From assembly GCA_005222965.1 (NCBI GenBank), contig NJBG01000001.1, positions 208,323 through 272,322 of the forward strand: a stretch of 64,000 nucleotides of DNA, given 5' to 3'. The notes under the pieces are model-generated. The model worked only from the letters and a program-made list of their open reading frames with translations, did no database searches and was not told where the DNA came from. Shown here piece after piece: positions 4,162 to 27,483 of the stretch; the stretch's first letter is position 1, and every line of letters starts with the position of its first letter. The position numbers and the translations under genes are program-made. The DNA comes from Candidatus Woesearchaeota archaeon B3_Woes. GTDB taxonomy: Archaea; Nanobdellota; Nanobdellia; Woesearchaeales; B3-WOES.

Positions 4162-4470
4162 GTGATAAAAAATATTCAATTCATCGGATTGAATAAATTA
4201 GAAGATTTGGAAAAAGACACATTTCAGACACTAACATCTAAATATTACAATAAGATTAAAAGAATACCAAAAGAGATAACTTCTTTAACAATACACATAA
4301 AACAGCACAAAAAAAGCCACCATGTTTCTAGATATTCTTTACATATTAAACTAGTTGTACCTTCAAAGGTTTTTGAAGTCAAAAAAACAGAATGGGGCGT
4401 AACAAAGCTTTTGCATAAATCATTTACAGCATTAGAAAACGAACTTCTAAAATATTATAATATAAAATAG
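4162..4470 (+). CDS. HPF/S30AE-like ribosome-associated protein
   Basis: This 102-residue basic protein has the outline of ribosome hibernation-promoting factors: beta strand, helix, three strands (SLTIHIKQH, YSLHIKLVV, KVFEVKKTE) and a C-terminal helix (ALENELLKYY). Members bind the 30S decoding centre during inactivity. Overall similarity is modest and rests on pattern only. The frame begins with GTG at 4162, about 27 nt after the TATA-like TATATAAG at 4131-4138, which argues for a leaderless GTG start. The stop codon overlaps the last three bases of the convergent tRNA gene. Confidence 0.5.
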   Translation: MIKNIQFIGLNKLEDLEKDTFQTLTSKYYNKIKRIPKEITSLTIHIKQHKKSHHVSRYSLHIKLVVPSKVFEVKKTEWGVTKLLHKSFTALENELLKYYNIK

Positions 4471-4642
4471 CGGGAGGTGGACTTCCAAAAAAGATATATA
4501 AATATCCTTTTTTTGAACCACCGACCTTTGCCCAAAAAACATAAAATGTTTTTTTCCGGGTGCCTCAGGGAAATCCCTATGAGCCTTCCGCAGTCATGAG
4601 GTCCATGACTTCGACGGGCACTCCTGACTGCCCCATCCCGCT
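4468..4642 (-). tRNA. Initiator tRNA-Met(CAU) precursor with four introns
   Basis: Acceptor halves (4642-4636 with 4475-4469) pair perfectly; A73 is encoded at 4468. D-stem GGGCA/TGCCC encloses a GG-containing loop. Removing 4611-4586 (26 nt), 4577-4562 (16), 4556-4529 (28) and 4514-4485 (30) leaves a 75-nt tRNA with anticodon stem TCGGG/CCCGA, loop CTCATAA, variable loop AGGTC, T-stem GGTGG/CCACC and T-loop TTCAAGT. The three consecutive G:C pairs at 29-31:39-41 are the hallmark of initiators. Introns sit at about 29/30, 37/38, 42/43 and in the T-loop (56/57-58/59). Boundaries can slide by 1-2 nt; intron 3 could give CCCGG instead of CCCGA. Introns 1, 3 and 4 contain strong internal hairpins. 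A TATA box at 4665-4674 is centred 27 nt before the 5' end. Confidence 0.85.
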
Positions 4643-4737
4643 ATAGGCCATGTTAATTACAAACTATTTATAAGCTTTTTTATTTAAATAAAAAAATTGG
4701 TAATATTTATAAACTACTTATAGATACTTCAAAATAA
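4643..4737. promoter_or_regulatory. Divergent promoters of the two tRNA genes
   Basis: This 95-nt spacer carries two TATA boxes: CTTATAAATA on the minus strand (4674-4665), centred 27 nt before the first base of tRNA-Met, and TATTTATAAAC on the plus strand (4704-4714), centred about 29 nt before the first base of tRNA-Ser. The placement predicts transcripts that begin at, or within one or two bases of, the mature tRNA 5' ends. Confidence 0.65.
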
Positions 4738-4897
4738 GCCGCGGTCGCTTAGTCTGGCCATAGCGTCGGATTGCTAGGAACAATATTACCTAGAATCTTA
4801 ATAAAGTTCACAAAAATCCGATGTCCTTCGGGGCACGTGAGTTCAAATTGGTCAAAAGGTTTCAAAGCCTTTTGCTTTGAAAGTCTCACCCGCGGCG
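4738..4897 (+). tRNA. tRNA-Ser(GCU) precursor with two introns
   Basis: Acceptor stem GCCGCGG (4738-4744) pairs with CCGCGGC (4890-4896), discriminator G at 4897. The anticodon stem TCGGA/TCCGA and loop TTGCTAA form after removal of a 39-nt intron at 4777-4815 (position 37/38). Anticodon GCT is at 4773-4775. The long variable arm TGTCC-TTCG-GGGCA (4822-4835) marks a class II serine tRNA. T-stem GTGAG/CTCAC encloses a T-loop TTCAAAT interrupted by a second intron of 36 nt (about 4848-4883, sliding by a base), which folds with AAAAGG/CCTTTT. The mature length is 85 nt. The next gene begins 10 nt downstream. Confidence 0.9.
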
Positions 4898-4906
4898 TTT
4901 ATAAAA

Positions 4907-6118
4907 ATGAGAAAAATAAAACTTGAATCGTTTTTTGACGAAAAAACAATGTCAGTTCACCTTAGAGAGGGCTCTTTTCCTTTTGCTAAAAAAGGTTCAC
5001 CTGGAAACTGGGATTTTGTTAAAATAAAGAACAAGGAACTAACTCAGACAGAAATAGAGGAAATAAGCAAGGAAATAATTGAAATAGGAGAAGAAGGTGA
5101 GGAAGGATTTGTAGAAATAAATAGAACAGGTTCTACAATAGCTCAATTAGGGACGTTTAGAATTGTAATAACAAGACCTCCTTTTTCAGACGGATGGGAA
5201 ATTACAGCTGTAAGACCTGTAAAACACCTAAAATTAGAAGAGTATAATCTATCATCAAAACTATTGGAAAGATTAGACAAGCAGGCAGAAGGAATTTTAA
5301 TATCAGGAGCTCCTGGAATGGGAAAATCAACATTTGCTGCTGCTCTAATAGAGCACTATGCAGACAAAGGAAGAATTGTGAAGACAATTGAAGCTCCAAG
5401 GGATTTAGTATTGCCAGAGAGCATAACTCAATACGCCATTTCGCATGGTTCTCCTGAAGAAGTTCATGATATCTTATTATTATCAAGACCAGATTATACA
5501 CTATTTGATGAAATGCGTAATAAAGATGATTTTCATCTATTCTCAGATCTAAGACTATCAGGTATAGGTTTAGCAGGAGTTGTTCATGCAACAAATCCAG
5601 TAGATGCTATACAAAGATTTGTAGGTAAAATAGAGCTAGGAGTAATCCCTCATGTAATAGATACTGTAATTTTCATAAAAGATGGAAAAATAGATAAGGT
5701 TCTGGGCCTACAAATTGAAGTCAAGGTTCCATCAGGAATGACAGAAGCTGATTTAGCAAGACCCATTGTTACTGTAAAAGATTTTGAAACAAACAAGCTT
5801 GAATATGAATTATATTCTTATGGTGAAGAAACTGTTGTAGTGCCTGTTGCAGAACAAACAATAAAAAAAACAGGTGCAAAAAGATTAGCAGCACAAGCAA
5901 TAAAAGATTATTTCTTAAAATACTCAGACATGGTGGAAGTAGATGTTGTTTCTGAAAACAAAGCAGTTGTTAATGTTCCAGAATATGCTATTTCTGGAAT
6001 AATTGGAAAAGCAGGAAAACATATTAATGAGATTGAGAAAAATTTAGGAATTAGCATTGATGTAGGAGAAATACAAGGACATTTTACTAATAAGAATAAA
6101 AAGAAAAAACGAAGATAA
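4907..6118 (+). CDS. PilT/VirB11-like ATPase with C-terminal KH domain
   Basis: A P-loop NTPase of the secretion-ATPase class: Walker A GAPGMGKST, an Asp box (LLLSRPDYTLFDEMR), a His-containing segment GVVHATNP, then a C-terminal type I KH RNA-binding domain (IIGKAGKHINEIEK) and a very basic tail. Archaeal relatives usually carry an N-terminal PIN ribonuclease domain and are about 600 residues; here (403 residues) the PIN domain is missing. An RNA-related role is inferred from the KH domain. The frame stays open upstream into tRNA-Ser, but the ATG at 4907 is the first start outside it. The esterase gene follows after 10 nt. Confidence 0.8.
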   Translation: MRKIKLESFFDEKTMSVHLREGSFPFAKKGSPGNWDFVKIKNKELTQTEIEEISKEIIEIGEEGEEGFVEINRTGSTIAQLGTFRIVITRPPFSDGWEITAVRPVKHLKLEEYNLSSKLLERLDKQAEGILISGAPGMGKSTFAAALIEHYADKGRIVKTIEAPRDLVLPESITQYAISHGSPEEVHDILLLSRPDYTLFDEMRNKDDFHLFSDLRLSGIGLAGVVHATNPVDAIQRFVGKIELGVIPHVIDTVIFIKDGKIDKVLGLQIEVKVPSGMTEADLARPIVTVKDFETNKLEYELYSYGEETVVVPVAEQTIKKTGAKRLAAQAIKDYFLKYSDMVEVDVVSENKAVVNVPEYAISGIIGKAGKHINEIEKNLGISIDVGEIQGHFTNKNKKKKRR

Positions 6119-6128
6119 GTGATAATAA

Positions 6129-6968
6129 ATGTTAAAATTGATTATTATAGTGATTATTTTTGCTCTTCTTCAAAAAAAAATAAGATTTTATTTTGTAACA
6201 AAAAAGCACAAAAAAACATATCCTATAATGAAAGGTGCTGAACCCTATTTTATTAAAAAAGGAAAAACAGGTGTTTTGCTTCTGCACGGTTTGACTAGTA
6301 CACCGCAAGAATTAAGATTTCTTGCTAAATATCTTGCTTCAAAAAATTTTTCTGTTTACGCTCCTTTAATAAAAGGACACGGCACTAATGTAATAGACCT
6401 TGCAAGAACAAAAGAAAAAGATTGGGAAAATTCTGCTCTAAAAGGATTTGACAAACTATCTAAATCAACTAATAGAGTTTATGTTATAGGAAGCTCTATG
6501 GGCGGAAATTTATCTTTTAGAATAGCCACTAAAAGAAATGTTGAAGGAATTGTTGTTATGGGTACTGCAATGTTCTTCAAAAGACAACTTTTTAATAAAA
6601 TTCTATTTAAATTTATTAAGTTATTCAAGAATTTTGTAAGAAAGGAGTATCCTGATGAAAAGATAAAAAAGTTGGTAAAGAAGAAAACCCAGTATATGGA
6701 ATTTCCATTAAACTGCATTAGTGATTTAATTAAGCTTATCAGAATATCTGAGAAAGATTTGCCAAAAATAACAGCTCCTTCCTTAATTATGCAGTCTTCA
6801 ACAGATCATATCCTACCAAAAGAAAATGCACAATGGATTTACAAACATATTGGTTCAGTTAAAAAAAGAATTTTTATGGTTCCAAATTCTTATCATGTTT
6901 TCTGTATTGATAAAAACAGAAACATAGCTTTCAAAGAAATATATAGGTTTATTAAAGAAACTAGTTAA
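6129..6968 (+). CDS. Alpha/beta hydrolase (carboxylesterase/monoglyceride lipase-like)
   Basis: A 279-residue serine hydrolase. A hydrophobic N-terminal segment (residues 2-14) could anchor it to the membrane. The oxyanion region LLLHGLTSTP, nucleophile elbow GSSMGG (Ser123), Asp226 (SSTDHIL) and His256 (NSYHVF) form the expected triad. It resembles thermophilic carboxylesterase Est30 and monoacylglycerol lipases; the substrate is unknown. It lies 10 nt behind the PilT-KH ATPase gene, so the two are probably cotranscribed. Its 3' end overlaps the convergent GH130 gene by 4 nt. Confidence 0.85.
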   Translation: MLKLIIIVIIFALLQKKIRFYFVTKKHKKTYPIMKGAEPYFIKKGKTGVLLLHGLTSTPQELRFLAKYLASKNFSVYAPLIKGHGTNVIDLARTKEKDWENSALKGFDKLSKSTNRVYVIGSSMGGNLSFRIATKRNVEGIVVMGTAMFFKRQLFNKILFKFIKLFKNFVRKEYPDEKIKKLVKKKTQYMEFPLNCISDLIKLIRISEKDLPKITAPSLIMQSSTDHILPKENAQWIYKHIGSVKKRIFMVPNSYHVFCIDKNRNIAFKEIYRFIKETS

Positions 6969-25468: not shown

Positions 25469-26086
25469 ATGCCTGAAAAGAAACTAAGGATTTTAGCAGC
25501 AGGAGACATTCATGGAGATGTTGACCTAGCTGAAAAACTAGCAAAAAAAGCAAAAAAAGAACATGTTGATTTAGTTGTTTTATGTGGAGATATAACCTAT
25601 GCAGATCAATCAACAGCTAATTTGATTAAACCTTTCAAAAAACTGCATGAAAAAGTTCTACTAATACCAGGAAATCACGAGCCTGTTGCAACAGCAGATT
25701 TCCTAGCTGAATTTTATGAAATAAAAAACATTCATGGCTATTCTGTTAAGTATAAAGACGTAGGAATATTTGGAGCAGGGGGAGCAAACATAGGTTTATT
25801 CCAACTAAAAGAAAAAGAAATTTACGATTTACTAAAAAAAGGATTTGACAAGATAAAATATCTAAAAAAGAATATAATGGTAACTCATGTCCATCCTTCT
25901 GGAACAAAGATGGAAAAATTTACAAAGATATTTCCAGGATCAGAAGGTGTAAAAAGAGCAGTAGAAAAACTAAAACCAGATATATTACTCTGCAGTCATG
26001 TGCATGAAGCAGAAGGCATAGAAGAAAAAATAGGCAAGACAAAAGTTATTAATGTTGGTAGAAGAGGAAAAATAATAGAAATCTAA
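25469..26086 (+). CDS. Calcineurin-like metallophosphoesterase
   Basis: 205 residues with all metallophosphoesterase motifs in order: GDIHGD, LCGDIT, GNHEP, MVTHVHPSG and CSHVHEAEG, which bind two metal ions. The single-domain cytosolic form resembles archaeal cyclic nucleotide or phosphoester hydrolases. The substrate is unknown. The 3' end overlaps the convergent rtcB gene by 4 nt. Confidence 0.88.
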   Translation: MPEKKLRILAAGDIHGDVDLAEKLAKKAKKEHVDLVVLCGDITYADQSTANLIKPFKKLHEKVLLIPGNHEPVATADFLAEFYEIKNIHGYSVKYKDVGIFGAGGANIGLFQLKEKEIYDLLKKGFDKIKYLKKNIMVTHVHPSGTKMEKFTKIFPGSEGVKRAVEKLKPDILLCSHVHEAEGIEEKIGKTKVINVGRRGKIIEI

Positions 26087-27483
26087 CCTTTACAAACACC
26101 CATAGGCTCTAATCTAACAACTTTAGGAGAAATTCCAGACTTATCAACACTTTCTATAACATCTGAAACATTTTTATAAGCTTCAGGGGCTTCTTCAGAT
26201 AAAATTTTAGGATGAGTTGATTTTGCAATTATACCACGAGAAGCTAATCCTTTACGAATATCTTCTCCATCAAACTTTCTTATTGCGGCATGCCTTGACA
26301 TAGAACGTCCAGCACCATGACAAGTACTTCCAAATGTCTTTTCCATAGCTTTAGAACTTCCTTTACAAATAAAAGAAGCAGTTCCCATTGAGCCTGCAAC
26401 TAAAACAGGATTTCCAGGAAAAGCTCTTGTAGCGCCTTTTCTATGAACATAAACCTCTTTTTCAACACCATCAACTAAATGCTTCTCTAATTTAACAACA
26501 TTATGACATAATCCATAGATAGTATGCATATCCATCTCCTGCCAAGTTCTACCAAATACCTTTTCAAAAGTTTCCCTTATCCATTGCGTCATAACAAGGC
26601 GATTTGTAAAAGAATAATTAACAGCGCACTTCATTGCTTTAAAATAATCCTGACCTTCTGAAGAATTTACAGGAGCACAAGCCAATTGTCTATCAGCTAA
26701 TTTAATCTTATACTTTTGAACAGCTTTTTCCTGAATTCTCAAATAATCTGTAGCAACCTGGTGACCTAAACCTCTAGAACCGCAATGAAGCATAATAACT
26801 ACTTGATTTTTATCTGTTATTCCTAACTTAGAAGCAAATTCTTTATCATAAATATCACTTACTTTTTGTATTTCCAAGAAATGATTACCAGCACCTAAAG
26901 TCCCAAGCTGTGGTTTTCCTCTTTTTTTTGCTAAATCACTGACTTTAGAAGGATCAGCACCAGACATACATCCATTTTCTTCTAATGATGCTAAATCTTC
27001 TTTAACACCATAACCATTCTCAACAGCCCATTTACATCCTTTAACCAAAACTTCATCTAATTCAGAATCACTAAGCCTAAGCTTTCCTTTAGAACCAACT
27101 CCACAAGGAATAGTTTTGAATAATTCAGTAATAAGTTCTTCCATCTTAGAATTAACTTCATCATAAGTTAAATTCGTACGAATAGAATTTATCCCGCAGT
27201 TAATATCAAAACCACATAAGCCAGCGCTTATAACACCGTCGACAGCATCAAAAGCAGCAACACTTCCCATAGGCAATCCATAACCAAAATGAGCATCAGA
27301 AAGTGCTACAACAGGATCAATCACACCAGGCATCTGAGTTACATTCATAATCTGTCCAACAGTTCCATCTTCTAATTCATCGATTATAGCTTTATTTCCT
27401 ATAACTAGCCCATTTACATTCATAGAGCCTTCTCTAGGTAACTGCCATTCAAATTCATTTAATTTTTTTAATTTTTCTTTCAT
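26083..27483 (-). CDS. rtcB: tRNA-splicing ligase RtcB
   Basis: RtcB joins tRNA exon halves with 2',3'-cyclic phosphate and 5'-OH ends, using GTP and Mn. The 466-residue protein has Asp93 and Cys96 (FDINCGI), His201 (GAGNHFLE), His233 (LHCGSRGLGH) and the CHGAGRSMSR loop (His389) equivalent to the guanylated histidine of the Pyrococcus enzyme. There is no intein. The start has a strong GAGGAGAT ribosome-binding site and a TATA box AGTATATAAAT near 27521-27531. Archease is 1 kb upstream on the same strand, and two intron-rich tRNA genes lie in this window. Confidence 0.97.
   Translation of the reverse strand: MKEKLKKLNEFEWQLPREGSMNVNGLVIGNKAIIDELEDGTVGQIMNVTQMPGVIDPVVALSDAHFGYGLPMGSVAAFDAVDGVISAGLCGFDINCGINSIRTNLTYDEVNSKMEELITELFKTIPCGVGSKGKLRLSDSELDEVLVKGCKWAVENGYGVKEDLASLEENGCMSGADPSKVSDLAKKRGKPQLGTLGAGNHFLEIQKVSDIYDKEFASKLGITDKNQVVIMLHCGSRGLGHQVATDYLRIQEKAVQKYKIKLADRQLACAPVNSSEGQDYFKAMKCAVNYSFTNRLVMTQWIRETFEKVFGRTWQEMDMHTIYGLCHNVVKLEKHLVDGVEKEVYVHRKGATRAFPGNPVLVAGSMGTASFICKGSSKAMEKTFGSTCHGAGRSMSRHAAIRKFDGEDIRKGLASRGIIAKSTHPKILSEEAPEAYKNVSDVIESVDKSGISPKVVRLEPMGVCKG

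Follow-up and report, generated by a model that had tools for sequence, protein, structure and literature searches.

An initiator tRNA-Met gene with four predicted introns in a DPANN-type archaeon, and its multi-intron relatives

The window analyzed here is a stretch of 64,000 nucleotides (C1:208323-272322) from a genome assembly of 1,021,708 bases (30% G+C, four contigs, 96% complete). Analysis of its sequence confirmed that the minus strand carries an initiator tRNA-Met (iMet) gene predicted to be interrupted by four introns, at 29/30, 37/38, 43/44 and 59/60 (Table 1), and agreed with the position and strand given in an earlier annotation made without database searches (the sequence-only reading). 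A TATA-like element precedes the gene at about the spacing found at most tRNA genes of the genome. The final three bases of the gene (4468-4470) overlap, on the opposite strand, the stop codon of a plus-strand 102-aa ORF (4162-4470). A tRNA-Ser(GCU) gene (4738-4897, plus strand) lies 95 bp away in divergent orientation and has introns at 37/38 (4777-4815) and in the T-loop at 59/60 (4848-4883). A generic ORF call from 4877 overlaps this tRNA-Ser gene, and the true start of the protein is therefore probably downstream of 4877.

Table 1. Window positions of the iMet gene, its predicted exons and introns, its upstream element and the RtcB gene (^, cut within a bulge)
Feature	Position	Strand	Details
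iMet gene, unspliced	4468..4642	(-)	175 nt including A73
TATA-like element	4665..4673	(-)	TTATAAATA; 23-31 nt upstream of tRNA position 1
Exon 1	4612..4642	(-)	tRNA positions 1-29: AGCGGGATGGGGCAGTCAGGAGTGCCCGTCG; agrees with relatives
Intron 1 (29/30)	4586..4611	(-)	26 nt; BHB helix CCGT:GCGG; bulges CG^A, AA^G; hairpin loop GACCT
Exon 2	4578..4585	(-)	positions 30-37: GGCTCATA; anticodon CAT
Intron 2 (37/38, canonical)	4562..4577	(-)	16 nt; BHB helix CTCA:TGAG; bulges TA^G, GC^A
Exon 3	4556..4561	(-)	positions 38-43: ACCCGG
Intron 3 (43/44)	4528..4555	(-)	28 nt; helix ACCC:GGGC, one A.C mismatch; bulges GG^A, AA^A
Exon 4	4512..4527	(-)	positions 44-59: AGGTCGGTGGTTCAAA
Intron 4 (59/60, T-loop)	4482..4511	(-)	30 nt; helix TTCA:TGGA; bulges AA^A, AG^T
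Exon 5	4468..4481	(-)	positions 60-73: TCCACCTCCCGCTA
RtcB-type RNA ligase gene	26086..27354 (C1:234408-235676)	(-)	PF01139, E=1e-159; only RtcB found

Joining the five exons gives a 75-nt iMet in which every stem is paired (AGCGGGATGGGGCAGTCAGGAGTGCCCGTCGGGCTCATAACCCGGAGGTCGGTGGTTCAAATCCACCTCCCGCTA). As the sequence-only reading had claimed, the traits of the initiator class are present, namely the A1-U72 pair, the CAU anticodon, three G:C pairs at 29-31:39-41 and a 75-nt class I body, and 61 intronless relatives show the same consensus. A permuted or trans-split organization was ruled against, as the five exons lie in order and in cis inside 175 nt.

In the standard bulge-helix-bulge (BHB) motif, a 4-bp helix lies between two 3-nt bulges, and both strands are cut after the second bulge base. 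This geometry, which the sequence-only reading had proposed to look for, was found at every junction of the iMet gene; it is full at introns 1, 2 and 4 and relaxed at intron 3, where three of the four pairs form, the fourth is an A.C mismatch and an outer helix is lacking. A BHB-based parser, given no initiator-specific input, returned the four introns as its best solution, and a consensus-based fit recovered the identical set, with the intron lengths originally proposed. An earlier alignment, in which pairing of the exon ACCCGG was not scored, had favored a single 44-nt intron in place of introns 2 and 3; this solution was rejected, as it leaves no anticodon stem. The proposed pairing of the GGG of intron 2 with the exon CCC was not needed either, since the fold has GGG-ATTT-CCC within the intron.

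The borders originally drawn for introns 1 and 2 were retained, and those of introns 3 and 4 were shifted by one or two bases. Intron 3 is read as AAAAAAACATTTTATGTTTTTTGGGCAA, after which the mature exon has CCCGG with T27.G43, and intron 4 as AAAAGGATATTTATATATCTTTTTTGGAAG, which gives a mature T-loop of TTCAAAT and not TTCAAGT as first proposed. We consider these boundaries settled because of the BHB geometry and because the same introns occur in relatives. The 43/44 introns of L116, L214 and L225 are the same as intron 3; L225, L214 and L237 read ...ACCCGG[...GGGTAA]AGGTC, the L116 intron ends in GGGCAA like that of the window gene, and fitted relatives with an intron at this site typically end in GGGYAA^AGGTC. 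Relatives with a 59/60 intron typically have the 3' end GAAAG^T or GGAAG^T, leaving TTCAAAT, with one loop exception (L248). The borders of the sequence-only reading, with mature CCCGA and T-loop TTCAAGT, would restore T27-A43 and pair the stems slightly better on a generic score (32.3 vs 31.9), but they cost introns 3 and 4 their symmetric BHB and depart from these ends in relatives, and T27.G43 is common among intronless relatives (e.g., L089 and L098). We regard the earlier borders as quite unlikely.

Standard searches passed over the gene. ARAGORN reported no tRNA on the window, Rfam found none there at its cut-off, and the iMet locus was absent from the matches of a genome-wide tRNA covariance search with E up to 10. 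The covariance-model check that had been proposed thus did not recover the locus, suggesting that simple tRNA finders overlook iMet genes in genomes of this kind.

The window locus gave the only good intron-tolerant iMet fit in the genome. The sequence-only reading had named a second, intact initiator as the finding that would count against it; none was found by a consensus scan of all contigs of the 96%-complete assembly on both strands, in which the best score (17.6 of 61.2) belonged to the window gene in its unspliced form, and neither end of the iMet gene has a second copy in the assembly. The other CAT tRNA found is an elongator with two introns, and a three-intron tRNA-Ile(UAU) appears to serve the isoleucine codon AUA. 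With about 4% of the genome lying outside the assembly, we consider it highly probable that this gene is the sole and functional initiator of the genome and that it is spliced four times by the splicing endonuclease and RtcB; we infer its expression, its splicing and their order from the DNA. The incompleteness of the assembly leaves room for a decaying pseudogene, with initiation served by another gene in the unassembled part, but the stems and initiator identity bases are all perfect, the promoter is kept, no other initiator copy was found in the genome, and relatives of other families retain multi-intron iMet genes with perfect exons, which makes a pseudogene very unlikely. An origin by chance or assembly artefact is vanishingly improbable, since the mature score of the real gene (74.8) was never approached in 300 shuffles of the 130-nt interior enclosed by the outer exons (maximum 57.2), shuffling of single introns matched their own BHB scores with a probability of 0.0001-0.0008 each, and relatives assembled independently have these introns as well.

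In the proposed route, a precursor of ~175 nt would be transcribed from the gene's own TATA promoter, the archaeal splicing endonuclease would cut each intron at the BHB made by exon and intron, and RtcB would join the exons, four times, to give the normal 75-nt iMet. The search for endonuclease subunits that had been suggested earlier recovered one gene in the genome, which encodes a 194-aa protein with PF01974 and PF02778 domains and has the Nanoarchaeum equitans subunit 3IEY_A as its closest PDB entry. Nearly all relatives likewise have one clear full-score endonuclease match per genome. No separate beta subunit was recognized among the genes of the genome, only one of which has PF01974, in a search that a very divergent beta could escape. 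Among the endonuclease types covered by an earlier review, those with broad specificity are heteromeric or of a three-unit form (PMC6379350). The window organism may have a beta subunit too divergent to recognize, or else its enzyme may be homomeric and tolerate relaxed sites. The RtcB gene in the window is the candidate ligase for the iMet exons. The one named match of a neighboring ATPase is from a Candidatus Aenigmatarchaeota genome (55% identity), which, together with the N. equitans endonuclease match, marks the host as an archaeon.

The introns would compete for the same exon bases, as intron 3 would need C39-C41, which the anticodon stem would take back once intron 1 is gone, and the intron 1 motif would form only if the lower end of the D-stem opened. 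We folded all 16 partly spliced states as bare RNA, a weak test, since it contains no protein or tertiary contacts. The central helix of intron 3 had a pair probability of 0.64 with intron 1 present and 0.98 once intron 2 was out; after removal of intron 1 the value was 0.01-0.05, because C39-C41 then pair with G29-G31. Since the intron 3 helix depends on the presence of intron 1, the model predicts that removal of intron 3 probably precedes that of intron 1. For intron 1 itself, pairing of the central helix had a probability near 0 in every predicted fold, because the D-stem wins by 2.7-4.8 kcal/mol. Formation of this helix, which draws on C24, C25, G26 and T27, would require opening of the lower D-stem, and on this model the same would apply to the many relatives with a comparable 3' end (CGGAA or CGGAT) on their 29/30 intron.

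Relatives were surveyed twice. The order comprises at least 88 families among 353 genomes, a breadth that would fit Woesearchaeales in the DPANN group. In these 353 genomes, the iMet 5' end served as query and loci were then retrieved, yielding 139 distinct fitted iMet genes, 61 without introns and 42, 16, 11, 8 and 1 with one, two, three, four and five, respectively. An intron-aware pattern, run against 371 genomes from the phylum, brought in L237, L238, L250 and L262, each with four introns, and the five-intron L258. Altogether, 14 iMet genes including that of the window have at least four introns, two of them five (L185 and L258); since the genes were found by patterns, the fractions with each intron number are not a census. 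The sequence-only reading was correct that four introns exceed the published maximum of three, but the gene is not unique, as 11 other iMet genes have four. Genes with at least four introns span at least two orders within a single archaeal class, L237 and L238 coming from the class of the window organism and a different order. Recurring sites are 15/16, 20a/21, 29/30, 37/38, 43/44, 45/46, 53/54 and 59/60, plus a few rarer ones; an acceptor-stem intron (4/5) occurs in L238 (G514), and the five of L258 (G285) lie at 15/16, 29/30, 37/38, 45/46 and 59/60. A parser allowing a wide range of positions called six introns in L258, an overcall that returns to five when the D-arm insert is read as one 27-nt intron. 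Among relatives from other families, L159 and L225 match the window gene at all four sites and L214 and L116 at three of them, all on the same exon background. Within genus g107 the number of introns per iMet gene ranges from one to four, and gain or loss is therefore quick. In the same-family genome G001 no iMet was found, the best match being a tRNA-Ile(UAU) with introns.

The GACCT hairpin loop of intron 1 recurs in 15 of 35 introns at 29/30 (shuffles: mean 0.6, maximum 4), namely in the window gene and 14 relatives; the 15 together come from six families. The loop is constant while the pairs of its stem change with compensation, and from these sequences it is likely to be under selection; common descent may account for part of the set. 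GACCU is complementary to AGGUC, exon bases 44-48, and we hypothesize that it pairs with the variable arm. The loop occurs in 12 of 18 genes with a variable-loop intron and in 3 of 17 without one (Fisher p 0.006, among genes related by descent). A strict rule joining the two was rejected, as L257, L260 and L262 combine the hairpin loop with an intron-free variable loop; here, too, the genes share descent. A broader and rather doubtful possibility is that iMet in this class is often multiply spliced, with up to five introns that cooperate, that GACCU:AGGUC pairing in the precursor and competition for exon bases enforce an order of removal, and that the precursor thereby serves as a checkpoint on assembly of the tRNA that begins translation.

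Previous studies put the maximum at three introns per archaeal tRNA gene (PMC8450103; PMC4390854), and up to three are known in some algal tRNA genes (PMC4090602), including tRNA-Ile(UAU) of Cyanidioschyzon (PMC9602550). The Thermoproteales, with which the sequence-only reading had compared the gene, do not include the window host, a DPANN-type archaeon. Pyrobaculum calidifontis tRNA-Glu(UUC) and P. islandicum tRNA-Pro(UGG) likewise have several short BHB introns per gene, at canonical and non-canonical sites, with stepwise removal as proposed for the window gene (PMC4390854, PMC8450103), but they belong to a different lineage with at most three, whereas the window iMet has four, two relatives have five, and the affected gene is the only initiator. 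The red-algal tRNA-Ile(UAU) (PMC9602550) and nucleomorph tRNAs (PMC4090602) resemble the window gene in having introns across the D-, anticodon and T-arms; in contrast, they are eukaryotic, have three introns, and the named examples are not initiators. N. equitans is also a DPANN archaeon, and its subunit 3IEY_A is the nearest PDB entry to the endonuclease here, but it has split tRNAs and a heteromeric endonuclease, whereas the window gene has all exons in cis and no beta subunit was recognized. A parallel with its lack of RNase P and leaderless tRNAs was rejected, as RNase P RNA was found in the genome of the window organism. We found no published report of a tRNA gene with four introns in a search that left most subscription journals and tRNA databases outside, so priority is not certain. 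The introns are of a known kind; what is new, as far as checked, is how many there are, that they interrupt the only initiator, and how widely they occur.

These genes would raise the maximum in one tRNA gene from three introns to four and five, in a tRNA that the cell cannot replace, such that repeated cutting and joining would be needed before any protein is made. The many related species, with none to five introns in many combinations of sites, form a natural series that bears on how tRNA introns are gained, why they persist in reduced genomes, whether their order of removal is fixed, and how a genome with one recognized endonuclease gene handles relaxed sites.

Introns are common in the other tRNA genes of the genome. 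We read the parses as showing introns in about 21 of the 37 archaeal-type tRNA genes, ~35 in total and close to one per gene; reported means are 0.84 in Thermoproteales and 0.21 in archaea (PMC8450103). By hand reading, tRNA-Ile(UAU) (G000:C1:929646-929948) has three introns, including a D-loop insert of ~110 nt, and tRNA-Ser(UGA) (G000:C1:661902-662075) also has three. A proline tRNA gene and several other isoacceptors were not found in this genome by three search methods, perhaps because they are split or even more heavily disrupted, or because they lie outside the assembly. Finally, four intronless, bacterial-looking tRNA genes lie in a row at 5815-6162 of the 6.3-kb contig C4 (L082), which may be a contaminant.
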